Position numbers and translations under genes: made by a program
Source: Halosimplex salinum
GTDB lineage: Archaea > Halobacteriota > Halobacteria > Halobacteriales > Haloarculaceae
NCBI RefSeq assembly: GCF_003730195.1
Contig: NZ_QWGG01000004.1
Span: forward strand, 248,001 to 312,000
Reading direction: 5' to 3'
DNA length: 64,000 nt
The notes under the pieces: model-generated
What the model was told of the DNA's origin: nothing
The model's input: only the letters and a program-made list of their open reading frames with translations
Databases searched by the model: none
In this document: positions 39,785 to 55,129 of the stretch, piece after piece
How the letters are laid out: every line of letters starts with the position of its first letter
How positions within the stretch are numbered: position 1 is the stretch's first letter

Positions 39785-41563
39785 ATGCCCGAGGACCTTA
39801 ACTGGGCCATCGGCGGTGAAGCCGGTGACGGGATCGCGTCTACCGGGAAGATATTCGCACAGGCACTCTCGCGTGCCGGCCGTCACGTCTTCACCTCGAA
39901 GGACTTCGCGTCGCGGATCCGGGGCGGGTACACCGCCTACAAGATCCGCACGTCGGTCGACCGCGTCGAGAGCGTCGTCGACAGGCTCGACATCCTCATC
40001 GCGCTCACCGAGCGCACTATCGACGAGAACATGGACGAACTGCACGAGGGGAGCGTCGTCATCTACGACGGCGAGCGCTCCACGATGCAGGACGTCGAAG
40101 TTCCGGATGAGATGATCGGCCTGTCGGTTCCGCTCCAGCGACTCGCCGAGGACGCCGGTGGCGCCATCATGGCGAACATCGTCGCCCTGGGCGCGGCCTG
40201 CGAAGTGGCGCAGTTCCCCATCGAGAATCTGGACGAATCACTGGACAAACGCTTCGGCGACAAGGGCGAGGCCATCGTCGAGAACAACAAGGAGGCCGCC
40301 CGACTGGGCCAGCAGCACGTCCAGGAGGAGTACGACCACGAGTTCGACTACGACATCGAGACCACGGACGAGGACTACGTCCTGCTCAACGGCGACGAGG
40401 CCATCGGCATGGGCGCCATCGCCGCGGGCTGTCGGTTCTACTCGGGCTACCCGATCACGCCCGCGACCGACGTGATGGAGTACCTGACCGGCCGCATCGA
40501 GCAGTACGGCGGCAAGGTCGTCCAGGCGGAGGACGAACTCTCCGCCATCAACATGGCCCTCGGCGCCGCCCGCGCCGGCGCACGCGCCATGACGGCCACC
40601 TCCGGGCCGGGGATCGACCTGATGACCGAGACGTTCGGCCTGGTCGCCACCACGGAGACGCCGCTCGTCATCTGTGACGTGATGCGCTCCGGTCCCTCGA
40701 CCGGGATGCCGACCAAGCAGGAACAGGGCGACCTCAACATGACGCTGTACGGCGGCCACGGCGAGATTCCGCGGTTCGTCGTCGCGCCGACTTCGGTCTC
40801 CGAGTGTTTCTGGAAGACCGTCGAGGCGTTCAACTACGCCGAGAAGTACCAGACGCCGGTCTACCTGGTGTCGGACCTCGCGCTCGCGGTCACCGAGCAG
40901 ACGTTCTCGCCGGAGACCTTCGACATGGACGAGGTCGAGATCGACCGCGGCAAGGTCGTCGACGAGTCCGAGATCGACAGCTGGCTCAACGAGAAAGGGC
41001 AGTTCCAGCCCCACTTCCCGTCCGCCGACGGCATCAGCCCGCGGACGTTCCCGGGCACGACCGACGGCGCACACATGACCACCGGCCTCGAACACGACGA
41101 ACTCGGTCGCCGGACCGAGGAAGAGGAGGTCCGCATCGAGCAGGTCGACAAGCGCACGCAGAAGGTCGAGACCGCCAAGGAGGAGGAGGACTGGGACTAC
41201 CGCGAGTTCGGCGACCCGGACGCGGACACACTCGTCATCTCCTGGGGCTCCAACGAGGGCGCCATGCGCGAGGCGCTCGGATTCCTCGACGACCGCGGTC
41301 ACGACGTGCGTTTCATCTCGGTGCCCTACATCTTCCCCCGGCCCGATCTGTCGGAAGAGATCGAGCAGGCCGACGACGTGATCGTCGTCGAGTGTAACGC
41401 CACCGGCCAGTTCGCGGACGTCATCGAGCACGACGTGCTCGAACGCGTCCAGCGGGTCAACAAGTACAACGGCGTCCGCTTCAAGGCGGACGAACTCGCG
41501 ACGGACATCGAGAACACACTCTCCGGTGCCGACACCGGCACGACGGAGGTGGAGGCAGAATGA
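39785..41563 (+). CDS. korA: 2-oxoacid:ferredoxin oxidoreductase, alpha subunit with fused gamma domain
   Basis: Oxidatively decarboxylates a 2-oxoacid to the acyl-CoA while reducing ferredoxin. The 592-residue protein has an N-terminal gamma domain (residues 1-190, GGEAGDGIASTGKIFAQALSR) and then the alpha part. GAIAAGCRFYSGYPITPATD near residue 212 and AMTATSGPGIDLMTETFGL near residue 268 are typical. Lengths of this pair (592 and 287) fit the haloarchaeal 2-oxoglutarate enzyme better than the pyruvate enzyme, as I recall; the substrate is not proven by sequence. It overlaps the beta gene by four bases. Confidence 0.9.
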   Translation: MPEDLNWAIGGEAGDGIASTGKIFAQALSRAGRHVFTSKDFASRIRGGYTAYKIRTSVDRVESVVDRLDILIALTERTIDENMDELHEGSVVIYDGERSTMQDVEVPDEMIGLSVPLQRLAEDAGGAIMANIVALGAACEVAQFPIENLDESLDKRFGDKGEAIVENNKEAARLGQQHVQEEYDHEFDYDIETTDEDYVLLNGDEAIGMGAIAAGCRFYSGYPITPATDVMEYLTGRIEQYGGKVVQAEDELSAINMALGAARAGARAMTATSGPGIDLMTETFGLVATTETPLVICDVMRSGPSTGMPTKQEQGDLNMTLYGGHGEIPRFVVAPTSVSECFWKTVEAFNYAEKYQTPVYLVSDLALAVTEQTFSPETFDMDEVEIDRGKVVDESEIDSWLNEKGQFQPHFPSADGISPRTFPGTTDGAHMTTGLEHDELGRRTEEEEVRIEQVDKRTQKVETAKEEEDWDYREFGDPDADTLVISWGSNEGAMREALGFLDDRGHDVRFISVPYIFPRPDLSEEIEQADDVIVVECNATGQFADVIEHDVLERVQRVNKYNGVRFKADELATDIENTLSGADTGTTEVEAE

Positions 41564-42423
41564 GCTCCGACGTTCGATTCACAGACTTCAAATCCGACAA
41601 GCAACCGACGTGGTGTCCCGGCTGCGGCGACTTCGGGACGATGAACGGCATGATGAAGGCCCTCGCCGAGACGGGCAACGACCCCGACAACACGTTCGTG
41701 GTCGCCGGCATCGGGTGTTCCGGCAAGATCGGCACCTACATGCACAGCTACGCGCTCCACGGCGTCCACGGCCGCGCCCTGCCCGTCGGCATCGGCGTCA
41801 AACTCGCCAACCCGAACCTCGAAGTGATGGTCGCGGGCGGCGACGGCGACGGCTACTCCATCGGCGCCGGACACTTCGTCCACGCCGTCCGCCGCAACGT
41901 GGACATGTCCTACGTCGTCATGGACAACCGCATCTACGGCCTCACCAAGGGCCAGGCGTCGCCGACCTCGCGCCAGGACTTCGAGACGAGCACCACTCCC
42001 GAGGGCCCCCAGATGCCCCCGGTTAACCCGCTCGCCCTCGCGCTCGCCTCCGGCGCGACGTTCATCGCCCAGTCGTTCTCCTCGGACTCCCAGCGTCACG
42101 CCCAGATCATCCAGGAGGCCATCGAGCACGACGGCTTCGGCTTCGTGAACACGTACTCGCCGTGCGTCACCTTCAACGACGTCGACACCTACGACTACTT
42201 CCGCGACTCCATCGTCGACCTCGAGGAGGAGGGCCACGACCCCACCGACCGACAGGCGGCCAAAGAGAAGATCCTCGAGGGCGACAAGGAGTACATGGGC
42301 GTCATCTACCAGGACGAGAACTCCGTCCCGTGGGAGGAACGCGAGGGCATCGACCAGAACATGTCCGACATCCCCGACGGCGCCCCCGACGACGCGATGG
42401 ACCTGGTTCGAGAGTTCTACTAA
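41560..42423 (+). CDS. korB: 2-oxoacid:ferredoxin oxidoreductase, beta subunit
   Basis: The thiamine-diphosphate and iron-sulfur subunit. Motifs are PTWCPGCGDFG near residue 16 and GIGCSGKIG near residue 49 for the 4Fe-4S cluster. GGDGDGYSIGAGHFVHAVRRN near residue 92 binds ThDP-Mg, and a distal YSPCVTFN near residue 199 supplies the fourth Cys. The 287-residue length is standard. ATGA overlap with the alpha gene. It is followed at once by a repeated 3' element (42424-42546) that probably ends the transcript. Confidence 0.92.
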   Translation: MSSDVRFTDFKSDKQPTWCPGCGDFGTMNGMMKALAETGNDPDNTFVVAGIGCSGKIGTYMHSYALHGVHGRALPVGIGVKLANPNLEVMVAGGDGDGYSIGAGHFVHAVRRNVDMSYVVMDNRIYGLTKGQASPTSRQDFETSTTPEGPQMPPVNPLALALASGATFIAQSFSSDSQRHAQIIQEAIEHDGFGFVNTYSPCVTFNDVDTYDYFRDSIVDLEEEGHDPTDRQAAKEKILEGDKEYMGVIYQDENSVPWEEREGIDQNMSDIPDGAPDDAMDLVREFY

Positions 42424-42546
42424 ACCATCTTTTTCCGCGCGGGGTTTCCTCGCGCGCCTCCGGCGCGCTGCGGGGAACCCCGCACGCAAAAACATGGGTG
42501 AAAAAGGCCGGACGCCTCGCTCACTCCGTTCGCTCGCGTCCGGTGA
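42424..42546 (+). repeat. 3'-end-associated repeat family 1, copy downstream of korB
   Basis: Starts right after the korB stop with CCATCTTTTTCCGC. Nested stems follow (42439-42449 with 42474-42483, one bulge; inner perfect 7-bp stem 42452-42458/42462-42468), then ACGCAAAAACATGG (42484-42497), GTGAAAAA, GCCGGACGC and GCGTCCGGTGA. The same ordered blocks occur on the minus strand after dnaJ (53779-53971). A transcription terminator or REP-like element is likely. Confidence 0.75.
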
Positions 42547-42547
42547 A

Positions 42548-42566
42548 CCGGCGCCTGCGGCGCCGG
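42548..42566 (+). other. 8-bp perfect hairpin (TGC loop)
   Basis: CCGGCGCC (42548-42555) pairs with GGCGCCGG (42559-42566), immediately following repeat family 1. Confidence 0.6.
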
Positions 42567-42574
42567 ACGTTACC

Positions 42575-42653
42575 CGCAACCGCCTCCGCGACCGCAACGG
42601 CTACCGCGACCGCAACTGTCTCCGCCACCGCGACCGCCTCCGCTACCGCAACC
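42575..42653 (+). repeat. Low-complexity ACCGC-rich microsatellite-like tract
   Basis: Units such as CGCGACCGC (three times) and CGCAAC (four times) recur with 6- and 12-base spacing. The tract lies between the korB 3' element and the next gene. It looks like a slipped-strand expansion and not a gene. Confidence 0.65.
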
Positions 42654-42721
42654 CCCTCACTACCGCCTTCCACTCCTTTCAGCCGGAAATCACTTGACCG
42701 GTCCCGCTCTCAGTTCTCGAC

Positions 42722-43402
42722 GTGAAGCGTCTCGGGACCGCGCTGGTCGCCCTCCTCGCGCTGGTCGCGCTCGCGGGAGCCGCGGGCACGTTCGACGCCG
42801 TCCAGGAGCCGTCGTTCACCGACGAGGAGACCCCGGTCGACGGCCCGAAATTCACCGACGTACCGCCGCCCACCGGCGCGCCCGGCGGCGCCGACGACTC
42901 CGCCGCTCGACACTCACCGACCGAGACGGCCGCCGGTGCGGGTGACAGCGGCGGCGTCTCGCCGATCGTCGTCCCGACCGTCGTCGGGTCCCTCTTCGCG
43001 AGCGCGCTGTTCGCCGTCTTCCTGACCGGCGACGACGAGCGCGCTCCAGACGCTCCCGCCGCGACCGACGACGCCGAGACCGGTCCCGAACCGACCGTCG
43101 AACCCGACTACGACTCACCGGGAGAGAACGCGGTCGCCCGAGCGTGGCAGCGGTTGCGCGGGCGCGTCGACGCGGACGACGAGACGGCCACTCCCGGCGA
43201 AGTCGCCGCACGCGCCCTCGACCGGCGACTCCCGGACGAACCGGTATCGACGCTCACGGACGAGTTCCGGGCCGTGCGCTACGGGGACGAACCCGCAACC
43301 GACGAGCGGGTCTCGAACGCGACCGACGCGGCGGCGACTCTCTCCGAGGCGGGCGCTCCCCCCGACGACCAGCCCGATTCTCCGCCGGACCACGGTCGAT
43401 AA
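42722..43402 (+). CDS. DUF4129-domain membrane protein, copy 1
   Basis: A 226-residue protein from GTG 42722. A signal-like hydrophobic N-terminus (MKRLGTALVALLALVALAG), an external Pro/Asp-rich stretch, a membrane helix near residues 79-104, then a cytoplasmic part ending in a DUF4129-like domain (ENAVARAWQRLRGRV, TPGEVAARALDRRLP, LTDEFRAVRYG) from about residue 137. DUF4129 proteins accompany MoxR/DUF58 systems. It is the first of two tandem homologues: the gene at 43434 has the same order of segments and closely similar ends. Confidence 0.85.
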   Translation: MKRLGTALVALLALVALAGAAGTFDAVQEPSFTDEETPVDGPKFTDVPPPTGAPGGADDSAARHSPTETAAGAGDSGGVSPIVVPTVVGSLFASALFAVFLTGDDERAPDAPAATDDAETGPEPTVEPDYDSPGENAVARAWQRLRGRVDADDETATPGEVAARALDRRLPDEPVSTLTDEFRAVRYGDEPATDERVSNATDAAATLSEAGAPPDDQPDSPPDHGR

Positions 43403-43407
43403 AAACT
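43398..43407 (+). promoter_or_regulatory. TATA-like element before DUF4129 copy 2
   Basis: CGATAAAAAC spans the stop codon of copy 1 and lies 27-36 bases before GTG 43434, so copy 2 and the genes after it may have their own promoter. Confidence 0.45.
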
Positions 43408-43433
43408 TGTAGATGGGGTGAACACTCCCGTTC

Positions 43434-44135
43434 GTGAAACGGTTCGCGACCGCCCTGATCGCCCTCCTCGCGCTGGTCGCACTCGTCACCGCCGCCGGGT
43501 CGCTCGGCGACGGTGTCGACCAGCCACGACTCGGTGTCGAGTCGACGACGGTCGCACCCGCGCCCGAATCCCCGAGCGCAGGTGGGGTCGGAGAAGGCCC
43601 GAACGCGACCCAGTCCGCCGAGGTCGTCGACACGGAAGCGACTGCTCCGGCCGAATCCGGCGACGGGGACGGCGGTATCTCGTCGCTCTTCGTCGTCGCG
43701 CTCGTCGGGGGACTCCTCCTCGCAGCGGCGCTGGCCGTGTTACTGACCGACGACGACGCGCGAGCACCACCACGCAAGGATGACGACGACGGCGGCGAGA
43801 CCACTGAACCCCCTACGCCCGCAGTCGACCCGGCCTACGACTCGCCGGCCGAGAACGCCGTCGTGGGCGCCTGGCGCCGACTCACCGAGCGCGTCGACGG
43901 CGTCGACGACTCGACGACGCCGGGGGAAGCCGCGTCCGCGGCCGTCGACCGCGGCTTCCCGACCGAGGCGGTCGAGGGTATCACGGGCCAGTTCGAAGCA
44001 GTGCGCTACGGGCGAGAACAGGCGAACAGCGAGCGCGAGCGCCGTGCCAGCGAACTCGCGGGGCGTCTCGACGCGGTCGACCAGCACCGGAGCGGCGCGA
44101 ACGGGAAGCGCGGCGACGGAGGTGACGGCGCGTGA
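43434..44135 (+). CDS. DUF4129-domain membrane protein, copy 2 (tandem paralogue)
   Basis: A 233-residue protein from GTG 43434. Its start MKRFATALIALLALVALVTA is nearly that of copy 1. Then come a variable Ser/Pro/Asp region, a membrane helix near residues 82-104, and a DUF4129 region (ENAVVGAWRRLTERVDGVDD, STTPGEAASAAVDRGFP, ITGQFEAVRYGREQ). The middle has diverged far more than the ends. Its stop overlaps the next gene's GTG (GTGA), so it is in the operon with DUF7269-like, DUF58 and DUF7519-like genes. Confidence 0.85.
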   Translation: MKRFATALIALLALVALVTAAGSLGDGVDQPRLGVESTTVAPAPESPSAGGVGEGPNATQSAEVVDTEATAPAESGDGDGGISSLFVVALVGGLLLAAALAVLLTDDDARAPPRKDDDDGGETTEPPTPAVDPAYDSPAENAVVGAWRRLTERVDGVDDSTTPGEAASAAVDRGFPTEAVEGITGQFEAVRYGREQANSERERRASELAGRLDAVDQHRSGANGKRGDGGDGA

Positions 44136-44710
44136 ACGCTCGCCGAGCGCTGCTCGGCGTCGGGTTCGGTGCCGTCGCCGTCGGCGTCGCGCTGACGCTC
44201 CGGCCGGGGCTCGTCCGATTCGACTTCGCGACGCTGCTGACGCTCGGCATCTGGGCCGTCGCGCTGGTCGGGGGCGCGCTCGCGGCGTTCGAACGCCTCG
44301 GCAGCGAGCGGACGACCGGCGGCGGACTCCCGCGGGCGGGCGAACGGCCCGACTACGACGTGCCGGGCGACGACCTCGCGGCGGCGGTCGGCGCGGTCGG
44401 CGTCGGCGAACGCGACGCGGCCGAACGCGACCGCATCCGCGAACGCCTGCGGGACGCCGCCGTCGACGCGCTCGACCGGTACGAGGGCGTCCCACCCGCG
44501 GAGGCCGAACAGCGACTGGTCGACGGGTCGTGGACCGGTGACTCCGAGGCAGCGGCGCTGTTCACGGACGTTGACGACTCCCCACACGAGGGCGTCGAAT
44601 CGGGGTTCGACCGGCGGGCCGAGCGGGCCGCCGCGGCGGTCGCTCGACTCCGGGACGGAACTGACGGGGACGCCACGGCCCGGCGACGCGGAGGTGTCGC
44701 CGATGACTGA
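44132..44710 (+). CDS. Membrane protein of the DUF58 cluster (DUF7269-like)
   Basis: A 192-residue protein with two N-terminal hydrophobic helices (residues 5-22 and 34-52) and a soluble C-terminal part with DYDVPGDDLAAAVGAVGVGERDAAERDRIRERLRDAAVDAL, a helical region. GTG start overlapping the stop of DUF4129 copy 2. In haloarchaea this family is seen next to DUF58 proteins; no molecular function is known to me. Confidence 0.8.
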   Translation: MNARRALLGVGFGAVAVGVALTLRPGLVRFDFATLLTLGIWAVALVGGALAAFERLGSERTTGGGLPRAGERPDYDVPGDDLAAAVGAVGVGERDAAERDRIRERLRDAAVDALDRYEGVPPAEAEQRLVDGSWTGDSEAAALFTDVDDSPHEGVESGFDRRAERAAAAVARLRDGTDGDATARRRGGVADD

Positions 44711-46058
44711 CGGGGCCGCGCTGGGGGCGGGACTGGCTCGCGGGGAAGAACGGCTCGAACGGACGGGTCGCTGGAACGGCGTCTACGGCCTCGCGCTCGT
44801 CGCGACGGCGGTCGGCATCCTCGTCGGCACGCCCGTCGTGATCCTCGCCGGCCTCGCGGGCGTCGGGTTCGCCGCGTACAGCCGATTCACGGACGCGCCC
44901 GACCCCGCGCTCGCCGTCGAGCGCCACGTCAGCGACACCGACCCGGACCCCGGCGACACCGTCCGGGTGACACTCACCGTGACGAACGAGAGCGGCGCCA
45001 CGCTGCCGGACCTCCGGTTTTGCGACGACGTGCCCGCCGGACTGGAAGTCGTCGAGGGGACGGCCCGACACACGACGGCGCTCCGGCCCGGCAAACGCGC
45101 CTCCATCGCCTACGAGTTCGAGGCGGTGCGCGGGCGCCACGAGTTCGACAGCCTCACCGTCGTGACCCGCGATCTGAGCGGCGCGAGCCGACGGGTCAGT
45201 CGACAGGCGACCGACCGCTCGACGGTCGTCTGCCGGCCGCGCTACGACGAACGCTCGGTCCCCCTTGGCGACCTGGCGACCCAGTTGACGGGGAGCCGGC
45301 CCGTCTCCGCGACCGGCGAGGGGCTCGCCTTCCACTCGCTGCGCGAGTACCGGACCGGCGACTCCCTCGCCAGCATCGACTGGAACCGTTTCGCGAAGGA
45401 CGGCGCCCTCGCGACGCGGCGATTCGACCAGCCCCGGACGGTGAAAGTCGTCCTGCTGGTCGACGCCCGGCGACCGGCGTACGTGACGGCGGCGGGCGAC
45501 CGGCGACCGGGCGTCGACGTCTGTGCACACGCGGCTGGCGCGCTCGTCGGCGGACTCACGGACGGAGGCTGTCACGTCGGGCTGGCGGCGCTCTCCCCGC
45601 GGTCGCTGTGGCTCCCGCCGGCGTCGGGTCGGACCCACCGCGAACGACTCCTCGACGCGCTCACGACCGACGAGGCGTTCGGCTGGCGCCCCCCGGAGTC
45701 GGCGACGGACGACGGCTTCGACCGACTGCGCTCGCAGTTGCCCGGCGACGCGCAGGTGGTGTTCTGTTCGCCGTTCGTCGACGACCGGGCCGTCGACGTC
45801 GCTCGCGCGCTCGACGCGCGCGGCCACGACGTGACCGTCGCGAGCCCGGACGTGACCGCGACGGACTCCGCCTACCGACGCCTCGCCGGGACGGAACGAC
45901 GGCTCAGGCTCGACGAGTGCCGGCGCACCGGCATCCCCGTCGTCGAGTGGTCGGAAGGCGACGGTGGCGGCGGCACCCGTTCGGCGCGGCCGTCGGACGC
46001 GTCGCCGCAGTCCGACAGGGCCGTCGCGACCGACGGAGGTGGTGCCGGATGGCGGTGA
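44703..46058 (+). CDS. DUF58 domain protein (VWA-like, MoxR-associated family)
   Basis: A 451-residue protein from ATG 44703, overlapping the previous gene by eight bases. Two adjacent hydrophobic helices (near residues 29-62) are followed by a beta-sandwich with repeated polar strands (VERHVSDTDPDPGDTVRVTLTV). The DUF58 core follows: SLREYRTGDSLASIDWNRFAKDGALATRRF near residue 213 and VVLLVDARRP near residue 250, a MIDAS-like DxR start. DUF58 proteins are partners of MoxR AAA ATPases in protein maturation; no such ATPase is in this window. Confidence 0.9.
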   Translation: MTDGAALGAGLARGEERLERTGRWNGVYGLALVATAVGILVGTPVVILAGLAGVGFAAYSRFTDAPDPALAVERHVSDTDPDPGDTVRVTLTVTNESGATLPDLRFCDDVPAGLEVVEGTARHTTALRPGKRASIAYEFEAVRGRHEFDSLTVVTRDLSGASRRVSRQATDRSTVVCRPRYDERSVPLGDLATQLTGSRPVSATGEGLAFHSLREYRTGDSLASIDWNRFAKDGALATRRFDQPRTVKVVLLVDARRPAYVTAAGDRRPGVDVCAHAAGALVGGLTDGGCHVGLAALSPRSLWLPPASGRTHRERLLDALTTDEAFGWRPPESATDDGFDRLRSQLPGDAQVVFCSPFVDDRAVDVARALDARGHDVTVASPDVTATDSAYRRLAGTERRLRLDECRRTGIPVVEWSEGDGGGGTRSARPSDASPQSDRAVATDGGGAGWR

Positions 46059-46549
46059 GGCGCGTCGACGACAGGCGGCGACCGCGAGTGAGTCACGGGC
46101 TCGCCGTGCTGGCCTCGTTCGCCGTTCTGTCGGCCGTGCAGGGGTCGACAGTCGCTGTCCTGATCGGAGCGGCGGGAGGCCTCACGCTCGCGGCGGCACT
46201 GGTCCGCCGGTCGGAGCCGACGGTCGTCTTCGCGGGCGCGACGCTGTTCGCCGCGACGGTGCTCGCAGGGACCGGGCCGGCCGGGCCCGAGGCGGTACTG
46301 GTCGGGGCGTTCGGTGCGGTGCTCGCGGCCGACGTGGGCACCTTCGCGCTCGGGATCGACCGTGACGCCGACGCGGCGGTCGCGACGACGCGGGTCGAAC
46401 TGCTCCACGCGGTCGGGAGCGCGAGCGTCGCGACTCTCACCGCCGGCGTCGGATACGTGCTGTTCGAGAGCGCGCCGACCGGGGGGTCGCTGGGCGTCGT
46501 CGCGCTCCTGCTCGGCGGGGTCGTGCTCGCGGCGCTCCTGCGGGAGTGA
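46049..46549 (+). CDS. Small membrane protein of the DUF58 cluster (DUF7519-like)
   Basis: A 166-residue protein starting at ATG 46049, overlapping the DUF58 gene by ten bases. After a basic N-terminus (MAVRRVDDRRRPRVSHG) it has five to six hydrophobic helices and ends in LLLGGVVLAALLRE. The position, last in the cluster and coupled to the DUF58 gene, matches the DUF7519 family as I recall it. The frame upstream of the chosen start is only an Arg-rich shadow of the DUF58 gene. Confidence 0.8.
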   Translation: MAVRRVDDRRRPRVSHGLAVLASFAVLSAVQGSTVAVLIGAAGGLTLAAALVRRSEPTVVFAGATLFAATVLAGTGPAGPEAVLVGAFGAVLAADVGTFALGIDRDADAAVATTRVELLHAVGSASVATLTAGVGYVLFESAPTGGSLGVVALLLGGVVLAALLRE

Positions 46550-46611
46550 ACGCGACACACCCGTTCGGTGCGTTCAGCAACACTGATTACGGAGACGCCG
46601 GACCAATTCCT

Positions 46612-47841
46612 ATGAGCGATCGCTTTGACGTGGTGATAGCGGGGGCGGGGCCCGCTGGGGCGCAGTGCGCACGCGATCTGGCGGCGAGAGATTACGAGGT
46701 GCTCGTACTCGAGACCGAGCCCGAGGACGGCTTCCCGCGTCAGAGCAACAAGTCGACCGCCGGCACCTTCCCCTCGATGATGGCGTCGTTCAACGTCCCG
46801 GACGACGTCGTGATGAACTTCACCGAGACCGTCGTGCTGGAGTCCCCGAACGACCACTTCGTCCGCGAACAGCCCGGCGCCGTCCTGGAGTTCGCCGAGT
46901 TCAAACAGTGGCTCGTCGCCGAGGGTCGCGCGAACGGCGCGGAGTACCGCTTCGACTCGCGCGCCTCGAAGCCGATCACCGAGGACGGCGACGTCGTCGG
47001 CGTCCGATACGACGGGAACGAGGAGGTGTACGCCGACGTCGTGATCGACGCCACCGGGCCGGCGGCGCCCCTCGCCAAGGAACTCGGCGTCAGCGACCTC
47101 AAGCGCGGTCGTCAGGCCATCGGCGTCGAGTACGAGTTCGAGGGCGTCGACGCCGACCACCCCGACTTCGCGGACTGCCGGGACGCGATGATGCTCCGCC
47201 TCGACCACGACCTCGCGCCGGGCGGGTACTCCTGGCTGTTCCACACCGGCGAGGACACGGCGAAGGTCGGGCTCTGTTACATCCAGAACGACAGCCACCG
47301 CTCGTACGCGAAGGAAGGGATGGGTATCGACGACTACCTGGAGTACTGGCTGGAGTCGGACCCACGCTTCGAGGACGCGGTCCGGCTGCAGGACAAGCAA
47401 CACCGCGGCTCGGCCCACATCCAGAAACCGGGGAAGCTGTACACTGACAGCTTCATGGCTATCGGCGACACGGTGCCGTCCATCGACCCGCTGTGGGGCG
47501 AGGGGATCCACAAGGGCATGCGCTCGGCGCGGGCCGCTGCCGCGGTGGCCGACAGGGCACTGACCGGCGAACGCGACACGTCGGCCGAGCAGATGCAGAT
47601 CTACGAGAAGCTCTGGCACACGGAGGTCGCGCCGAAGATGAACACGCGCCTGTTGATGACCCAGCTGCTGTATCACGCGCCCAACGAGCGCTACGACAGG
47701 CTGATGGCGGACCTCCAAGCGGCCGACGGCGACACGCTCGCGAAAGTCAACGACGGCAACCGGCTGGCGATGCACGAGTTGATCCACCTGAGCGACCTGC
47801 CGCTGCTCGCGCGCTTCGCGCGGGAACGCCTGGGTTACTGA
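46612..47841 (+). CDS. Geranylgeranyl-reductase-family flavoprotein (digeranylgeranylglycerophospholipid reductase-like)
   Basis: A 409-residue FAD protein that would hydrogenate isoprenoid double bonds, as in saturation of archaeal lipids. I start at ATG 46612 (MSDRFDVVIAGAGPAGAQCA). The Rossmann loop is at residues 10-16; the family signature is QSNKSTAGTFPSMM near residue 43, and the second FAD motif is FMAIGDTVPSIDPLWGEGIHKGMRSA near residue 282. The family also includes menaquinone- and carotenoid-acting reductases, so the exact substrate is open. Confidence 0.88.
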   Translation: MSDRFDVVIAGAGPAGAQCARDLAARDYEVLVLETEPEDGFPRQSNKSTAGTFPSMMASFNVPDDVVMNFTETVVLESPNDHFVREQPGAVLEFAEFKQWLVAEGRANGAEYRFDSRASKPITEDGDVVGVRYDGNEEVYADVVIDATGPAAPLAKELGVSDLKRGRQAIGVEYEFEGVDADHPDFADCRDAMMLRLDHDLAPGGYSWLFHTGEDTAKVGLCYIQNDSHRSYAKEGMGIDDYLEYWLESDPRFEDAVRLQDKQHRGSAHIQKPGKLYTDSFMAIGDTVPSIDPLWGEGIHKGMRSARAAAAVADRALTGERDTSAEQMQIYEKLWHTEVAPKMNTRLLMTQLLYHAPNERYDRLMADLQAADGDTLAKVNDGNRLAMHELIHLSDLPLLARFARERLGY

Positions 47842-47904
47842 CGGCGGAGGCGGCCGGACGACGGCGTTCTCTCCGTCTCCGGTGACCGATCGTGCGTGCG
47901 ACAG

Positions 47905-47913
47905 GATTTTATC
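47905..47913 (+). promoter_or_regulatory. TATA box for the Tat-exported protein gene
   Basis: GATTTTATC is 23-31 bases before ATG 47936, which selects that start among several in-frame candidates. Confidence 0.55.
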
Positions 47914-47935
47914 GCTCCCGTCCGCCGTGGATGGC

Positions 47936-49882
47936 ATGGAACGGGAACCGAGCAGGCGACGATTCATAACGGGTTGTTGTGTCGCGGGCGCGGGGGCGCT
48001 CGCGGCGGGCGGATTGGCGGGCGGTGCGACGGCCGAGACCGACGACCGGCAGTCGACGCCCGAGACGCGCTGGGAACGGACGTACGACCGGGGGACGAGC
48101 GTCGACGTCAACGGGGTCGCACCGGCGAGCGACGGCGAGTTCGTCCTCGTCGGGACGACCGAGTCCTCCGGCGACGAGACGGTCAGCGAGGCGTGGCTCG
48201 CCAGGGTCGACGCGGCCGGGCAACTCGTCTGGGAAGCGACCTTCTCCGACCGCGAAGTCACCGAGGGGTTCGGCGTGGCCGCCGCGCCGGACGGCTTCGT
48301 CCTCGTCGGCCACACCCGTGAGGAGGGCGCGACCGCACAGAGCGCGTTCGCCGTCCGCGTCGACACCGAGGGAACGGAACAGTGGCGGCGGACCTTCGAC
48401 GCACGGCCGAGCACGACCGACACCATGCGCGCGGTCGACGTCGACTCGGACGGTCGGTTCGTCTTCGTGGGCTGGACGAGCCGTTTCGACGACGCGTGGG
48501 TCACGCAACTCGACGACTCGGGGTCGATAAACTGGGCGAAGCGGTACGGTCCGGGGTCGCGAAACCAGTATCACGGCGTCGTCGCGGACCCCGAAGGCGG
48601 GTACGTGGTCGTCGGTGAGACGGACGACACGTCCGGCGACACTGCCGGCTGGGCCAACAAACTCGACGAGGAGGGGGGACAGGTGTTCTCCCAGCAGTTC
48701 AAGAAGAGCTCGGACAGCGCGACGAACCCCCAGGACGACTTCAACGCCTTCTACGACGTGGATCGGACGCGAAAGGGGTTCGTCGCGGTCGGTGCGAACG
48801 CGTTCGACCCGAAGACGAACGAGCAGCGCGGATGGGCGCTGGAGTTCAACGTCAACGGCGGGAAGCTCTGGGACAAGCGCTACACCGAGGAGAACTACAC
48901 GGAACTCAGGAGCGTCTCGTACGGCGACCTGGAGTACTACGTCGCCGGCCAGACCGCGACGGACGGGAACGGGACCAACGCGCGCGGCTACGCCGCGAAC
49001 CTCGGGATCGAGGGCGATATGAAGTGGAAGGGGACCTGGGGCTCGGGCTCCAGCGAGTTCTCCGCCTTCGACCTGACCGAGGCCGAGGGGATGGTCTGTG
49101 TCGGGAGTACGGCCGACTTCGCCGGTGCGAACACGAGCGGCTGGGGCGTGAAGGTCGGCGGCGAGGAGGTCGCGACGCGGACGCCGTCGCCGACTCCGAG
49201 TCCGACCCCTACGCCGTCGCCGTCGGACGGTTCGACGCCGACGTTCACCCCGACGCCGACGGACACCTCCAGCGGAACCGACGGTGGCGGCGAGACCGAC
49301 GCTACGGACACCGCCGCGCCGACACCGGCCGGAACCGAGACGCCCGGCGATGGCGGTACGGGGGGCGGAACCGAGACGACCGACGCGGCCGACGGCGACG
49401 GCGGAATCTCGCCCACGACCATCGGTATCGGCGCCGTGATCCTCGCGCTCGGCGGGGGCGGCCTGCTGTACAACCGGTTCCTTGCGGGCGACGACGACGC
49501 CGACGTGGCCGGCCCCGGCGAAGGGACTGGCGGCGCGGCGCCCGTGGACACGGGTGACGGCGACGGCGGCGACGGCGATTCCGGCGGCGTCGAGACCACC
49601 GAACCCGACACCGAGGGGACCGAGGAGGTCCAGTCGGCACAGACTGTCGTCGAAGGCGAGGACGCGTCGGGCGGGGCGGACGCCGGCGAGTCGACCGAGG
49701 CCGCCGACGCCGACGCGGACGACACGGACACGGACGCGGACGGAGGCGACACGGACACGGACGCGGACGGAGGCGACACGGACACGGACACGGACGGAGG
49801 CGACACGGACACGGACGGAAGCGATACGGACGCGGACACGGACGCGGGCGACACGGATTCGGACGAGACGAGCGGGGAGTAG
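47936..49882 (+). CDS. Tat-exported beta-propeller-like surface protein with transmembrane helix and Asp/Thr repeat tail
   Basis: A 648-residue protein. The start has a twin-arginine signal (EPSRRRFITGCCVAGAGALAAGG, cleavage probable near ATA-ET). Residues about 45-405 hold six to seven propeller-like repeats, each with a strand like GEFVLVGTTES or GYVVVGETDD and a W..xx..YG/D segment. A Ser/Pro/Thr stalk with TPSPTPSPTPTPSPSD follows, then a membrane helix near residues 496-520. The tail of 120 residues is acidic, ending in repeats of DTDTDADGG coded by a DNA repeat at about 49725-49865. Function unknown. Confidence 0.82.
   Translation: MEREPSRRRFITGCCVAGAGALAAGGLAGGATAETDDRQSTPETRWERTYDRGTSVDVNGVAPASDGEFVLVGTTESSGDETVSEAWLARVDAAGQLVWEATFSDREVTEGFGVAAAPDGFVLVGHTREEGATAQSAFAVRVDTEGTEQWRRTFDARPSTTDTMRAVDVDSDGRFVFVGWTSRFDDAWVTQLDDSGSINWAKRYGPGSRNQYHGVVADPEGGYVVVGETDDTSGDTAGWANKLDEEGGQVFSQQFKKSSDSATNPQDDFNAFYDVDRTRKGFVAVGANAFDPKTNEQRGWALEFNVNGGKLWDKRYTEENYTELRSVSYGDLEYYVAGQTATDGNGTNARGYAANLGIEGDMKWKGTWGSGSSEFSAFDLTEAEGMVCVGSTADFAGANTSGWGVKVGGEEVATRTPSPTPSPTPTPSPSDGSTPTFTPTPTDTSSGTDGGGETDATDTAAPTPAGTETPGDGGTGGGTETTDAADGDGGISPTTIGIGAVILALGGGGLLYNRFLAGDDDADVAGPGEGTGGAAPVDTGDGDGGDGDSGGVETTEPDTEGTEEVQSAQTVVEGEDASGGADAGESTEAADADADDTDTDADGGDTDTDADGGDTDTDTDGGDTDTDGSDTDADTDAGDTDSDETSGE
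49725..49865 (+). repeat. Asp/Thr-coding tandem repeat
   Basis: A degenerate repeat of ACGGACACGGACGCGGACGG-like units (about 24-27 bases) within the preceding gene. Copy number and spacing vary (DTDADGG, DTDTDGG, DTDGSD). Such tracts are prone to length change. Confidence 0.7.
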
Positions 49883-49943
49883 CGCTTTCGGGCGGACTTC
49901 CGGAGTCGCAACCCCTATTGTGCGCATTCCCTCAGTATCAGGT

Positions 49944-50783
49944 ATGTCTCAGGAGTCACTGTCCCCGGAGAGCGTGCCGCGCGTCGACGGGATGCCGCGG
50001 TTCGGACTCGGCACCTGGCAGAACGAGAACCCCGAACAGTGCGTCGCGAGCGTCAGCACGGCGCTGGAGATGGGGTATCGCCACGTCGACACCGCCCAGA
50101 TATACGGCAACGAGGACGCGGTCGGTGACGGCATCGCCGCGGCGGACGTGCCCCGGGAGGAGGTCTTTCTGGCGACGAAGGTCTGGATCGACCACCTCGA
50201 CCGCGACGGCGTGGTCGAGACGACCGAGGAGAGCGTGGCGAAACTCGGCGTCGACCGGCTGGACATGCTGTACGTCCACTGGCCCTCGCGGACCTACGAG
50301 GCCGCGGAGACGCTCCCGGCCCTCGAAGAACTGAAGGAACGCGGGCTGGTCGACCGCATCGGCGTCTCGAACTTCGAACCGCACCACCTCGACGAGGCCC
50401 GCGATGTGCTCGACGAACCGCCGTTCGCCAACCAGGTCGAGATGCACCCGCTGCTCCAGCAGACGGAACTGCGCGAGTACGTCGAGGGGACGGACATCGA
50501 ACTGGTGGCGTACTCGCCGCTGGCCCGCGGTGGCGTGTTCGACGTGCCCGAACTCTCGGATATCGCGGAGAAACACGGCGTCAGCGAGGCGCAGGTGTCG
50601 CTGGCGTGGCTCCGCGAGAAGGGCGTCACCGCCATCCCGAAGGCCACGAGCGAGGCGCACATCCGGGACAACTGGGAGAGCCTGGCGCTCGAACTCGACG
50701 ACGAAGACGTGTCGACCATCGACGCCATCGACCGGACCGAGCGCCAGATAAACCCGGGATTCGGACCGGCCGCCTGGGACTGA
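49944..50783 (+). CDS. Aldo/keto reductase
   Basis: A 279-residue NAD(P)H-dependent reductase of the AKR barrel. The catalytic tetrad is visible: Asp and Tyr in HVDTAQIYGNEDAVG near residue 48, Lys in FLATKVWI near residue 77, and His in LYVHWPSRTY near residue 112. Late cofactor-binding motif GVTAIPKATSEAHIRDNWES near residue 230. I start at ATG 49944; the open frame upstream is a Thr/Arg-rich shadow of the repeat tail. The substrate is unknown. Confidence 0.9.
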   Translation: MSQESLSPESVPRVDGMPRFGLGTWQNENPEQCVASVSTALEMGYRHVDTAQIYGNEDAVGDGIAAADVPREEVFLATKVWIDHLDRDGVVETTEESVAKLGVDRLDMLYVHWPSRTYEAAETLPALEELKERGLVDRIGVSNFEPHHLDEARDVLDEPPFANQVEMHPLLQQTELREYVEGTDIELVAYSPLARGGVFDVPELSDIAEKHGVSEAQVSLAWLREKGVTAIPKATSEAHIRDNWESLALELDDEDVSTIDAIDRTERQINPGFGPAAWD

Positions 50784-50888
50784 GCGACGGAATCTACGGA
50801 CAGAGCGCCGAACGTCGGAAACCCTCGATCCTGTCGGCGAGAGGACCTGTCGACCGCGAACAGTAGCGGCGCTGGACGGCCAACAGAA

Positions 50889-50898
50889 GAAGTATACA
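50889..50898 (+). promoter_or_regulatory. TATA box for the membrane protein at 50922
   Basis: GAAGTATACA is 24-33 bases before ATG 50922. Confidence 0.55.
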
Positions 50899-50921
50899 GG
50901 GGGCTTGCCAAACTGACGAAC

Positions 50922-51674
50922 ATGTCTGTCGGGAATCGGCAGGGGGTCGTCGAAGCGATACGCTTCGACCTGAACAAGTTCCACGAGACGTGGATGGGGT
51001 TGCTGTATCCGCGCCAGCGCGGCGCGAGCGACACCGTCCTGGGGAAGTGGCAGCCACAGACGACTCGCGAGCAGGTCACGTACAACGTGTGGGCGGCGCT
51101 GGGGGCGCTCGTCGTGGCCGTGCTCTACCCGCTCGCGCTGTTCGGCGTGATCGTCCGCTTCCACGCGCGCAAGATCGACGTCTCGGTCGAGAAACTCGGC
51201 GCGGTCGGCGTGATACTGCTGACCATCCTCGTCTGGGGCGGGCTCTCCGCGCTCGTCGAGTTCCGGCTCGACGCACAGTTCTCGTCCCAGCAGGCCAACG
51301 CGATCATCGCCGCCAGCGTCGTCGCCGTCGTCTCCTCGGCGCTCGCGGTGCTCTTCAGGAGCATCGGCGGACGGATCACGACCGTCGTCTTCGCCTACCC
51401 GTTCGGGATGACGGCGATATTCCTGCCGCCGGTGGTCGCCGCGCTCGTCTCCGAGGACGTCGCGCAGTTCAGCATCGTCTACGCAGAGGAGTTCGCGGAG
51501 CTGTTCCGCGCGGAAGTGCTCGAACCGCTCGGGCTCAGAGACGAGGTCGCCGACCGGTTCGACATGACGGAGTTCGCCTACGTCATCATCTGGCTCGGGA
51601 TCTCCGTCCCGCTCGGGTGGCTGCTCGGCACCACGGTCGCGCTGGCGGACTTCATCCGCCCGACCGACGAGTAG
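50922..51674 (+). CDS. Predicted multi-pass membrane protein, no family recognised
   Basis: A 250-residue protein. The first 50 residues are polar and end in a Gln/Thr-rich stretch (WQPQTTREQVTYNVWAALG), then come five to six hydrophobic helices at about residues 57-76, 88-107, 122-140, 152-175 and 222-245. A conserved-looking amphipathic region YAEEFAELFRAEVLEPLGLRDEVADRF near residue 186 may be a cytoplasmic or extracellular helix. I do not recognise the family and see no functional motif. Confidence 0.8.
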   Translation: MSVGNRQGVVEAIRFDLNKFHETWMGLLYPRQRGASDTVLGKWQPQTTREQVTYNVWAALGALVVAVLYPLALFGVIVRFHARKIDVSVEKLGAVGVILLTILVWGGLSALVEFRLDAQFSSQQANAIIAASVVAVVSSALAVLFRSIGGRITTVVFAYPFGMTAIFLPPVVAALVSEDVAQFSIVYAEEFAELFRAEVLEPLGLRDEVADRFDMTEFAYVIIWLGISVPLGWLLGTTVALADFIRPTDE

Positions 51675-51686
51675 CCCACCCAGTTC

Positions 51687-52403
51687 TCACAGCAGGTCCG
51701 ACGGATCGATCACCGTCGATTCGGGGACGTCTCCGCTCCCGTCAGCCACCGCGACCGTCCCGGTCCGGGTGCGATCGACGAGTACCGTGCCACCGGCGCG
51801 AATCGGCGCGAGCACGCCCGCGACCACGGTCCCGGGGTTCGAGAGCGGCGCGCGGATCGTCACCTCGCTGCTCTCGTCAAGCCCCCACTCGTCGACGACG
51901 GCCGCACTCGCGTCCAGCAGTCGTTCGTGAGTGAACGTCTCCCCGGCCGCGTCCAGCGCGGGCGCGTCGGGTTCGACGACGTCCGGCGGGTTCGTCGGGT
52001 TCTCGCTCCACATCTCGGCTTCGAAGTGGGCGAACTCGGGGTCGTCGGGCACGTCGCCGTAGACCAGCGTCTTCGTCCCCGGTTCGGGGTCGTAGGCGTC
52101 GGCCCGTTCGGCGGGGACGAGGAGCGCTTTGGCGTCGCAGTCGCTCGACGGGTCGAACCGGACCGGCGCGCCGAGCAGTCCGGCGCCGAACAGCGCGAGC
52201 AGGGGCGACGGCGTCAGCGACTCGCCGGCGTCGACGGCGACGGTGGCGCCGCCGCGGACGCCGTAGTGGCGCAGGAGGTTGCCGGTCTTCCAGGCGTTCG
52301 TACAGAACTTCTCGTAGCTGTACGAGCCGGCGCGGCTGTCGGTCCGAACCGCCAGTTCGTCGGTGCGCCGCTCGCGCGCGACCAGGTCCCCGATCACGTC
52401 CAT
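51687..52403 (-). CDS. Truncated acyl-CoA-synthetase-like protein (N-terminal ANL fold only)
   Basis: A 238-residue protein. The N-terminal half has the pattern of adenylate-forming enzymes: DLVARERRTDELAVRTD, then a YEKFCTNAWKTGNLLRHYGVRGGATVAVD segment and LLALFGAGLLGAPVRFDPS. The ATP-binding loop (normally S/T-S/T-G-T-T-G-x-P-K-G) is missing: in its place stands PALDAAGETFTHERLL. There is no C-terminal domain. It cannot be a normal ligase. The open frame and codons are intact, so it is a maintained short protein and not an obvious pseudogene. Confidence 0.72.
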   Translation of the reverse strand: MDVIGDLVARERRTDELAVRTDSRAGSYSYEKFCTNAWKTGNLLRHYGVRGGATVAVDAGESLTPSPLLALFGAGLLGAPVRFDPSSDCDAKALLVPAERADAYDPEPGTKTLVYGDVPDDPEFAHFEAEMWSENPTNPPDVVEPDAPALDAAGETFTHERLLDASAAVVDEWGLDESSEVTIRAPLSNPGTVVAGVLAPIRAGGTVLVDRTRTGTVAVADGSGDVPESTVIDPSDLL

Positions 52404-52523
52404 GGCGGCGCTTCGGTCGGAATCGGCAAAAAGCTGGGCGATAGGGCGCGCTCGCGCCGCCCACCGGGCTGTCGGGTGACGGCTACCGGAAACGGAACTG
52501 CAGAACGCGAGAGTCCAGCACGT

Positions 52524-52853
52524 CTACTCGCCGAAGATATCGATCGCGTCGAACGACACCGAGTCGCCGAGCGTCACTTTCGATTCGTCCTTCCTGTACC
52601 GCACGATGCCCGCCTCCGAGAGCTTCGGGACGTGGACGTGGTAGAGCGACGCGTGTACGGTGTCGACGTCGACGTCGTCCGCACCGTCCTCCTCCCGTTC
52701 CCATCGGGTGACTCGCTCCGCGAGTTCCTCCAGCGCGAGCGTCTCCCCGGCCTCCTTCAGACAGCGGACGACACGCAGTCGCCGAGGATTCGAGAGCGCG
52801 TCGTAGACCAGCGATTTGTTGCTGTGTTTCATTCGACCGTCTATGGAACTCAT
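52524..52853 (-). CDS. Winged-helix regulator (DUF7344-like)
   Basis: A 109-residue DNA-binding protein from ATG 52853. The first helix region YDALSNPRRLRVVRCLKEAGETLAL is the family start; SLYHVHVPKLSEAGIVRYRKDESKVTLGD is the recognition helix and wing. It is similar in build to the regulator at 16852, though the sequences differ clearly. A TATA box about 25-30 bases upstream supports the start. Target unknown. Confidence 0.83.
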   Translation of the reverse strand: MSSIDGRMKHSNKSLVYDALSNPRRLRVVRCLKEAGETLALEELAERVTRWEREEDGADDVDVDTVHASLYHVHVPKLSEAGIVRYRKDESKVTLGDSVSFDAIDIFGE

Positions 52854-52874
52854 CACCTATTGTCCGCTCCGTGT

Positions 52875-52883
52875 ACGTATATT
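52875..52883 (-). promoter_or_regulatory. TATA box for the winged-helix gene at 52524-52853
   Basis: On the minus strand CAATATACG lies 22-30 bases before ATG 52853. Confidence 0.6.
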
Positions 52884-53030
52884 GCTTTCGCCAGGGTGAT
52901 ACTTGGAAAATGGCAAACGTAGGCCTGAAGGCTCGTATTATCGAAATCTCGGCGAGTCGGTACCGGCCCAGCGGTGCGAGAAGACGAGAGATTTCGAAAA
53001 ACGGAATTCGGGCGCGACGCCTCGATAGAG

Positions 53031-53546
53031 CTACACTTCGTAGGACCCGGATTCGTCGTCCCCGGCGACGTTCTCTGTGCCGAAGTGGTCGAACGGCCGA
53101 ATGTACCTGTGGCGGATCAGTTCCTGGCTCTCGATCTGGAGCCCGAGTTCGTGGAGAGCCTCCGCGATCCGTGTCAGGTCGTCGCTTTTCGGGGCGACGG
53201 CGACGATATCGACGTTTTCCCGGCCGGACATCAGTTCCATCACTTCCACGACGCCGCCGATTTCGAGCGCCTTCCGGGCGAGTTGCTCCCGTTCGACGAT
53301 GGTGGCCGTGCAGGTGAACCGGACCTCGAGCTGGTAGCCCGCGGCCTCGTAGTCCACGACCGGGACGTACCCTTCGAGGACACCCCGGTCCTCCAAGTCC
53401 TCGATGCGATTTCGCACGGTCCCGTCACTGACACCGACCTGCTCGGCTATCTCGACCGCGGTCCTGTGTCGGGCATCCCGCTGTAGTAACTGGAGGATCG
53501 CCCGGTCGATGTCGTCGAGCGGCGTGAACTCGGGGGACGCGCACAT
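53031..53546 (-). CDS. Lrp/AsnC family transcriptional regulator
   Basis: A 171-residue regulator. Residues 10-60 form the winged helix with LDDIDRAILQLLQRDARHRTAVEIAEQVGVSDGTVRNRIEDLEDRG, and residues 66-145 the RAM-like ligand domain (CTATIVEREQLARKALEIG, MELMSGRENVDIVAVAPKSDD). Members respond to amino acids or redox state and form octamers. It is a single gene on the minus strand; no neighbour suggests a specific pathway. Confidence 0.92.
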   Translation of the reverse strand: MCASPEFTPLDDIDRAILQLLQRDARHRTAVEIAEQVGVSDGTVRNRIEDLEDRGVLEGYVPVVDYEAAGYQLEVRFTCTATIVEREQLARKALEIGGVVEVMELMSGRENVDIVAVAPKSDDLTRIAEALHELGLQIESQELIRHRYIRPFDHFGTENVAGDDESGSYEV

Positions 53547-53684
53547 CGCTTACAGGCACGGGCCGCCGACACTTGTCGCCTTCGAGGAGTAACCCTACGT
53601 ACGTGGTGAATACGTGGCTACGAGCGGTTCTACGGCGGTGCTGGGATCGTACCGGGCCGAGCGAAGCGAGGCGCGGTTTCACCG

Positions 53685-53700
53685 TCAGAGCATGCTCTGA
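53685..53700. repeat. Perfect 16-bp palindrome
   Basis: TCAGAGCATGCTCTGA is identical to its reverse complement. It is about 140 bases upstream of the Lrp gene start, so it could be an operator or part of a repeat element. Confidence 0.7.
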
Positions 53701-53778
53701 TACGTCCGGAGTCGTTCGCGGTGGTCACTCCTTCGGACGTCGCTCGTGAGGGGGGCCAGTGAGCGGAGGGAGCGTGAC

Positions 53779-53971
53779 TCACCGGACGCGAAGGAGCGGA
53801 GCGACTGAAGCGTCCGGCTTTTTCACCACCGGAAGGCGGTCCGCTCGCTTCGCTCGCGGCTCCGACTTCCGAGCCTTGCCTCGCTTCGCTCGGTAAGACC
53901 ATGTTTTTGCGTCGGGGGTACCCGCAGGCGCGCGAAGCGCGCCGAGGATGCCCCCGGCGGAAAAAGATGGT
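53779..53971 (-). repeat. 3'-end-associated repeat family 1, copy downstream of dnaJ
   Basis: Read on the minus strand from the dnaJ stop: CCATCTTTTTCCGC (53957-53970), GC-rich stems, ACGCAAAAACATGG (53899-53912). About 66 bases of GAAGCGAG-type insert come next, then GGTGAAAAA, GCCGGACGC (53810-53818) and GCGTCCGGTGA (53779-53789). It matches the element after korB block by block, in the same orientation relative to the gene. Confidence 0.75.
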
Positions 53972-55129
53972 CTAGAAGGAGCTCTTGATCTTCTCGAAGA
54001 AGCCCTGTTCGACCTCGACCTCCTCGCCGCCGGCCTCGGCGAAGGCTTCGAGGGCCTCGCGCTGCTCCTCGTTGAGGGAGTCGGGGGTGACGACCTGCAC
54101 CTGGACGTAGAGGTCGCCGTTGCCGCGCCGGCGGAGACGGGGCATGCCCTTGCCGGAGAGGCGGAACGTCTCGCCGCTCTGGGTGCCCTTGGGGACGTCG
54201 AGTTCGACCTTGCCGTCGACGGTCGGCACCTCGATGCTGTCGCCGAACACCGCCTGCGGGAAGGAGATGGGCTCCTGGTGGTGCAGGTCCGCGCCGTCGC
54301 GCTCGAAGTCGGGGTGGTCCCGCACCGAGACCTCGATCAGGAGGTCGCCCTTGGGGCCGCCGCGTTCGCCGGGGGCGCCCTCGCGCTCCATGCGGAGGGT
54401 CTGGCCGTCCTCGATGCCGGCCGGGATCTCGACGGAGAGGGAGGCGTCCTCGCGGACGACGCCGTCGCCGCGGCAGGTCGAACACGTCTCGTCGTAGATG
54501 GTTCCCTCGCCCTCACAGCGCCGGCAGGTCTGGCGCTGCTGGACGCGACCCATCGGGGTCTGCTGGACGGTGGTGGTCTGCCCGCGGCCGTCGCACTCGG
54601 GGCACTGCCGGGAGTCGGTGTCCGGCGGGTGGCCCTGCCCGTTACAGTCCGAACAGGTGTCCGGGCGGGTGACGTTGAGTTCCTTCTCGACGCCGTGGTA
54701 GGCGTCCTCGAGGTCGATCTCGAGTCCAGTGCGGAGGTCTCGACCCTGACGGGGGCGGTTGGACCCGCCGCCGCCACCGCCGCCGAAGAACGTCTCGAAG
54801 ATGTCGGACATGTCGCCGAAGGGGCCCTGACCGCCGCCCATGCCGCCCATACCGCCCATGCCGCCGGCGCCGCGGCCGCCGTTGTCGGTGGCGCCGTGCT
54901 TGTCGGCCTCGACGTAGCGGTCGTGGCCCAGCTGGTCGTACATCTGGCGCTGTTCCTCGTCGGTGAGGACCTCCTTCGCCTTCTTGGCCTGCTTGAACTT
55001 CTCCTCGGCGTCGGGCTCGTCGCTCACGTCGGGGTGATACTCGCGCGCCTTCTCCCGGTAGGCCTCCTGGATCTCGTCCTCGCTGGCGTCCCGGGAGACG
55101 CCGAGTACCTCGTAGAAGTCCTCGCTCAT
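53972..55129 (-). CDS. dnaJ: Chaperone protein DnaJ
   Basis: Stimulates DnaK ATPase and delivers unfolded clients. The 385-residue type I protein has the J domain at residues 3-66 with AREYHPDVSDEP (the HPD triad), a Gly/Met-rich linker near 88-130, four CxxCxGxG zinc repeats (CSDCNGQG, CPECDGRG, CRRCEGEG, CSTCRGDG) around residues 160-225, and the C-terminal substrate domain. dnaK and grpE are not adjacent in this window. The stop codon is followed at once by repeat family 1. Confidence 0.96.
   Translation of the reverse strand: MSEDFYEVLGVSRDASEDEIQEAYREKAREYHPDVSDEPDAEEKFKQAKKAKEVLTDEEQRQMYDQLGHDRYVEADKHGATDNGGRGAGGMGGMGGMGGGQGPFGDMSDIFETFFGGGGGGGSNRPRQGRDLRTGLEIDLEDAYHGVEKELNVTRPDTCSDCNGQGHPPDTDSRQCPECDGRGQTTTVQQTPMGRVQQRQTCRRCEGEGTIYDETCSTCRGDGVVREDASLSVEIPAGIEDGQTLRMEREGAPGERGGPKGDLLIEVSVRDHPDFERDGADLHHQEPISFPQAVFGDSIEVPTVDGKVELDVPKGTQSGETFRLSGKGMPRLRRRGNGDLYVQVQVVTPDSLNEEQREALEAFAEAGGEEVEVEQGFFEKIKSSF

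Follow-up and report, generated by a model that had tools for sequence, protein, structure and literature searches.

A family of dispersed palindromic elements, often located at the edges of genes, is present in the haloarchaeon Halosimplex salinum. Two of its copies fall within the 64,000-nucleotide stretch analyzed here (contig NZ_QWGG01000004.1, positions 248,001 to 312,000; hereafter, the window), where they directly follow the stop codons of korB and dnaJ, 11.5 kb apart and on opposite strands. The element carries a run of five T residues followed by C (T5C) on both of its strands, together with hairpins whose stems covary. We favor, at somewhat better than even confidence, the interpretation that the element is a two-way transcription terminator or insulator that borders transcription units and whose copies are exchanged as a unit.

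Architecture and spread of the element family

The initial annotation reported that the same ordered blocks occur after korB and after dnaJ, and our reading of the sequence agrees, with the blocks spanning 42425-42546 (+) and 53970-53779 (-). Some details required revision. The korB element was said to start at 42424. It is indeed present on the plus strand, but box 1 begins at 42425, and the single A at 42424 separates it from the korB stop. Likewise, the extra sequence in the dnaJ copy measures 72 bases (53898-53827) rather than 66. Exact occurrences of both 14-base blocks in the window are limited to these two sites, whose features are as follows.

41560..42423, + strand: korB gene; the first copy lies directly after its stop
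42425..42438, + strand: korB copy, box 1 CCATCTTTTTCCGC, holding the forward T5C; 5' arm of palindrome 1, 1 nt past the korB stop
42435..42488, + strand: korB copy, hairpin 1, GC-rich, the interior from T5 to A5 (fold and covariation)
42484..42497, + strand: korB copy, 3' arm ACGCAAAAACATGG, pairing with box 1; C.C mismatches flank T5/A5
42498-42505, + strand: korB copy, GTGAAAAA (sequence reading)
42498..42506, + strand: korB copy, GTGAAAAAG, which reads CTTTTTCAC on the reverse strand, the reverse T5C
42507-42515, + strand: korB copy, GCCGGACGC (sequence reading)
42507..42545, + strand: korB copy, hairpin 2 (GCCGGACGC ... GCGTCCGG; fold and covariation)
42536-42546, + strand: korB copy, GCGTCCGGTGA (sequence reading)
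42547..42569, + strand: korB copy, hairpin 3 (ACCGGCGCC TGC GGCGCCGGACG; fold and covariation)
53972..55129, - strand: dnaJ gene; the second copy lies directly after its stop
53957..53970, - strand: dnaJ copy, box 1, 1 nt past the dnaJ stop
53899..53912, - strand: dnaJ copy, 3' arm ACGCAAAAACATGG (sequence reading and fold)
53827..53898, - strand: dnaJ copy, insert of 72 bases of hairpin modules that splits box 2 between CATGG and GTGAAAAA
53826-53819, - strand: dnaJ copy, GTGAAAAA (sequence reading)
53818-53810, - strand: dnaJ copy, GCCGGACGC (sequence reading)
53789-53779, - strand: dnaJ copy, GCGTCCGGTGA (sequence reading)
53779..53826, - strand: dnaJ copy, GTGAAAAA plus hairpin 2 (GCCGGACGC ... 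GCGTCCGGTGA), with no clear hairpin 3

The two 14-mers are imperfect reverse complements, and each pattern matches the other arm with 3 mismatches. Together they form a palindrome with the layout CCAT-C-TTTTT-C-NNN ... N'N'N'-C-AAAAA-C-ATGG, which is followed on its 3' side by GGTGAAAAAG, hairpin 2, GTGAACCG, and hairpin 3, in that order, for a total length of roughly 140-220 bp. The CCAY/RTGG arms belong to hairpin 1, and hairpins 2 and 3 lie outside these inverted repeats. The reverse strand has its own T5C, formed by GTGAAAAAG read backwards, and this signal lies within the conserved box 2.

Because T5 and A5 lie in opposite arms of a single palindrome, the T tract precedes hairpin 1, unlike the arrangement in a bacterial terminator. 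An intrinsic terminator of the bacterial type acting in the forward direction was therefore rejected, since T5 stands before hairpin 1 and no T run comes after it. The order of a hairpin followed by a T run occurs only on the reverse strand, where hairpin 2 precedes CTTTTTC. In bacterial bidirectional intrinsic terminators, which serve convergent genes, an A run and a T run flank a GC hairpin. Relative to these, the present element is inside out, as its forward strand has T5 ahead of hairpin 1 and A5 behind it.

The hairpin stems are under constraint and covary. At stem positions 12-20 of hairpin 1, 80% of cells are paired, compared to 61% when partners are shuffled among copies (maximum 66% in 2,000 shuffles). 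This count covers 48 of the 50 copies recognized in the H. salinum genome (see below), as 2 have no recognizable box 1. By script count, hairpin 2 is paired at 87% versus 61% after shuffling and hairpin 3 at 90% versus 66%, for the 24 of 50 copies that fit the pattern. Each copy was scored in its best register out of several, which inflates the observed values. When loci from this and other genomes are combined into 159 distinct arm pairs, arm position 4 holds a C-G pair in 81 and a T-A pair in 71, the C.C mismatch is present at position 5 in 149 and at position 11 in 108, and the T/A runs have lengths of 5/5 in 141 and 6/6 in 5. Hairpin 1 has no excess of G.U pairs (34) over A.C mismatches (56). 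A forward RNA would tolerate G.U pairs, and so the target of selection seems to be the DNA, both strands, or the reverse transcript.

These elements constitute a real, structured family centered on the Haloarculaceae. The proposal that the blocks represent a family was upheld by genome-wide searches with box 1 and with a longer box 2 pattern, which recovered further copies. In the whole 5.07-Mb genome, CCATCTTTTTCCGC has 7 exact matches and 63 with no more than 2 mismatches, compared to 24 for a reversed control. The box 2 pattern CAAAAACATGGGTGAAAAAG, with up to 3 mismatches, marks 50 places (26 on the plus strand and 24 on the minus strand), compared to 0 for its reversed control. The insert splits box 2 of the dnaJ copy, which is therefore not among these 50; an insert at the same point is also seen to the left of another copy in this genome (L070).

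When no more than 1 mismatch is permitted, box 2 is present in 89 of 391 genomes of the class, with 1 control hit in all. A hand count divides these into 61 from the same family (of 86 genomes, with as many as 40 copies each) and 28 from outside it (of 305 genomes, with at most 8 copies). Among the matches listed, the named archaeal records with box 2 are from Halosimplex, Halorientalis, Haloarcula, Halomicrobium, Halovenus, Salinibaculum, and Halorhabdus. Bacterial matches are also among those listed, several of them lacking box 1 (e.g., Bacillus and Pantoea). A plasmid collection yielded 2 weak matches and a phage collection yielded 0, and 3 viral contigs contain box 2. The window has no Rfam match at the gathering score, and a known Rfam RNA was rejected when four element-bearing loci, searched at expectation values up to 1, produced one match far below the gathering score. 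No description of the element was found in the literature searched, a search that left most subscription journals uncovered, and the box strings appeared there only in papers on other organisms.

Two observations concern the neighboring genes. The product of korA, the neighbor of korB, matches POR and POR_N. In addition, the interval from an AMP-binding-like gene to dnaJ (window positions 52431-53972) is about 1.5 kb long and carries an AsnC-type regulator gene, and the same interval spans 20-23 kb in two relatives (G275 and G404).

Placement at gene edges and turnover among relatives

Genes were called by using a codon score trained on the window. In 23 of the 50 H. salinum copies, box 1 lies 0-14 nt past a plus-strand stop (class A), and in 14 copies it lies 18-51 nt upstream of a minus-strand start (class B), leaving 13 copies in neither class. 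Nine class B copies are found at 38-41 nt, just outside what appears by eye to be a TATA box. This precision was compared to uniform placement within the same intergenic gap. For the 31 copies with a plus-strand gene on the left, box 1 falls 0-3 nt after the stop in 18, compared to 0.52 expected and a simulated maximum of 5. For the 19 copies with a minus-strand gene on the left, 9 fall 38-41 nt upstream of the start, compared to 0.28 expected and a simulated maximum of 4. Box 1 is also located 3' of tRNA genes, including those for tRNA-Gly (L042) and tRNA-Pro (L132).

The original description of a 3'-end element thus fits the many copies located after stops but does not fit the 14 copies upstream of opposite-strand starts, and the class B copies lead us to reject a strictly 3'-end element. 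Both classes recur in other genera. Among 154 elements, 30 are class A, 25 are class B, and 66 occupy other positions; the rest either lack box 1 (12, including chance hits in bacteria) or are too close to the end of the locus (21). We also considered whether the CTCAGTACAG found at the right end invariably marks where a convergent gene stops. This proposal failed, as several copies have a separate long repeat at this location.

A longer structured repeat with the core GGACTGAAAGGGCGAGGC ... CACTATCC ... GGATATCC ... CGAGGGCTTTCA occurs in the window at 61028-61045 (-) and 63960-63977 (+). About 10 copies are present in the H. salinum loci examined (including L015, L046, L050, L051, L053, L065, and L072), with further copies in loci of other Haloarculaceae, and the repeat often begins right after hairpin 3 of the element. 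It is a candidate non-coding RNA, and three of its loci gave no Rfam match at expectation values up to 1.

The korB and dnaJ sites were then compared across relatives, judged by eye among the best 30 matches per search from 85 (korB) and 84 (dnaJ) matching genomes. Of the same-genus genomes, G414 and G404 have thousands of exact 60-mers in common with named loci of Halosimplex pelagicum and H. carlsbadense. The element is present right after korB in 7 of 7 same-genus genomes (as a diverged variant in two) and in 10 of 23 other family genomes inspected. After dnaJ, it is present in 5 of 7 and 1 of 23, respectively, a distribution that may reflect gain or loss. At korB, the element has been replaced: the core in the window shares 93% identity with a paralogue next to a tRNA, compared to 77% with the core at the korB site of a close relative (G408) whose KorB protein is 97% identical to that encoded in the window. 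For the dnaJ core, identity is 89% to the nearest paralogue and no more than 78% to the cores at other dnaJ sites. Among 43 cores, the median best paralogue identity is 0.91 and the top value is 0.99. Judging from these identities, the sites persist while the elements occupying them are replaced by other family members.

Proposed two-way termination and its alternatives

Our preferred interpretation relies on data from Haloferax volcanii. In this species, a T stretch with TC marks intergenic 3' ends, and inserting T5C into a reporter led to termination of 95% of its transcripts (PMC7237163). The same study describes hairpins upstream of 503 mapped 3' ends, and the one hairpin tested gave 59% termination. 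Combined with the presence of T5C on the forward strand (box 1) and on the reverse strand (GTGAAAAAG), these data make two-way termination the best reading. In the forward direction, RNA polymerase would meet T5C (CTTTTTC) just past the stop codon and release the mRNA there. In the backward direction, it would meet hairpin 3, hairpin 2, CTTTTTCAC, and then the second T5. Box 1 would abut the shielded unit at its stop codon, at the end of its tRNA, or at the upstream boundary of its promoter, with hairpins 2 and 3 on the side facing the neighboring DNA. Copies may spread or swap as a unit via gene conversion or transposition, and such exchange would allow a site to keep an element while its sequence is replaced.

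The T5 tract near the stop was initially taken to suggest a terminator. The tract does adjoin the korB and dnaJ stops, and we infer that transcription terminates there. The accompanying suggestion that the conserved second half of the element means more than forward termination also holds. In the window, a T5 tract lies within 60 nt of the stop for 5 of 63 called genes, which is about 9 times the base rate, and 2 of these 5 tracts belong to the elements.

Several points weigh against this interpretation. Most genes in the window have no T5 near the stop (only the 5 of 63 have one). Moreover, T5C is equally well kept in class B copies, where no gene ends at box 1, and therefore local termination alone is insufficient to account for its conservation. 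Finally, neither the conserved C.C mismatches nor the pairing of T5 with A5 is necessary for a plain T5C terminator. The element resembles the H. volcanii terminator (PMC7237163) in having T5 and then C just past gene ends, where transcript release is presumed. It differs in that its T5 pairs with A5 within a palindrome, two more hairpins follow, a T5C is present on the opposite strand, and the copies are dispersed and also lie upstream of promoters.

The most serious alternative, although we judge it unlikely, is a mobile palindrome that lacks a transposase, of the REP, SMR, or miniature inverted-repeat transposable element (MITE) kind that is kept where it is harmless, with any terminator activity being incidental. 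Consistent with this proposal, the complete unit, including its two T5C signals, is retained regardless of which genes flank it and even when no gene ends on that side, its presence at dnaJ varies among relatives (see above), paralogues are near-identical at up to 99%, and some copies are flanked by direct repeats (38 of 170; see below). However, the elements are placed much more precisely than harmless random insertion predicts, the stems covary instead of decaying, and the element is nearly absent from the plasmid and phage collections. No transposase partner turned up, although no search was aimed at a transposase or RAYT.

Among haloarchaeal repeats, the SMR-A elements and PATEs of Haloquadratum are similarly short, transposase-free, and palindromic, with tens of copies per genome (PMC3119063). 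SMR-A elements are about 110 bp long with inverted terminal repeats, target PATEs and IS605-type elements, and have copies that are more than 95% alike; the available part of the paper reports no target duplications (PMC3119063). By comparison with SMR-A as described there, the element reported here lies at gene edges and has diverse copies, covarying stems, and, in some cases, gene-end repeats.

The repetitive extragenic palindromic (REP) sequences and bacterial interspersed mosaic elements (BIME) of enterobacteria are dispersed palindromes adjoining gene ends, with a REP tetranucleotide and a RAYT transposase. Our element resembles these in being a dispersed palindrome next to gene ends. T5C and promoter-edge positions are not known to be REP features.

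The direct repeats suggest another possibility. They flank 38 of the 170 elements with sufficient flanking sequence, measure 19-80 bp, and mostly correspond to the 3' end of the neighboring gene. Between the left copy and box 1 there are 0-14 nt (mostly 0-4), and the right copy is usually the 3' end of a minus-strand gene. Loci with gene-end repeats by box 1 include L069, L070, L075, L077, L146, L202, and L206. Tandem arrays of repeats are present in L086 (three 186-bp units) and in the H. salinum loci L075 and L077, and in L091 and L097 the repeat is the start of a plus-strand gene. In the H. salinum locus L066 (1764-1947), a second copy of the final 23 nt of tRNA-Glu lies about 85 nt downstream, directly before box 1 of the element. 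The repeat on the box 1 side starts at GGTGG, read in the gene direction. In 19 of the 38 cases, alignment of the repeat breaks off exactly 4 nt before box 1, and in 16 of these 19 the first 3 nt match the gene and are followed by one extra base (0.3 matches expected by chance); several cases are orthologues, and by our reading they represent roughly 12 independent genes. This one-base signature points to a DNA-processing step. We consider it doubtful, but worth entertaining, that the element is mobile or site-specifically processed, with a precise box 1 end, and that, through a mechanism not yet described, it joins gene ends and duplicates or captures the end next to it. If so, the elements would be portable insulators bordering exchangeable cargo.

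Far less probable is an mRNA element, in which hairpins transcribed past T5 would define the mature 3' end or shield the mRNA against nucleases. The RNA folds of the korB and dnaJ copies are far more stable than those of shuffled sequences (z scores of -4.86 and -4.25), the stems covary strongly, and a tested Haloferax hairpin gave the 59% termination noted above (PMC7237163). Nevertheless, the G.U and A.C counts in hairpin 1 (34 versus 56) argue that the forward RNA fold is not selected, T5C precedes hairpin 1, class B copies follow no gene, and the window has no Rfam match.

It is similarly improbable that the elements serve as recombination borders, that is, homologous sites for gene-cassette exchange between strains with transcription being secondary. 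Exact placement at stop codons is unnecessary for recombination, and the supporting arrangement was seen at one locus only. At this divergent-gene locus, two inward-facing elements have outer flanks that are 84-87% identical in three Halosimplex-type genomes and enclose unlike DNA of about 0.7, 3.6, and 2.8 kb (L036 of H. salinum, 1443-2238; L128, 527-4312; and L154, 105-3079). The paralogue-like replacement at korB also fits this proposal. However, synteny in the window continues through the korB element, and the break on the dnaJ side is indistinguishable from any intergenic break. Synteny breaks at the two elements of the window are accordingly unsupported at korB and uninformative at dnaJ.

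Gene ends in haloarchaea are known mainly as a T-stretch motif. If the two-way terminator or insulator interpretation is true, then a portable, structured element that acts in both directions where genes and tRNAs end and at the edges of promoters would represent a defined archaeal insulator. It would also open to testing the reason for T5C pairing within a palindrome and the way in which sites keep their elements despite replacement.

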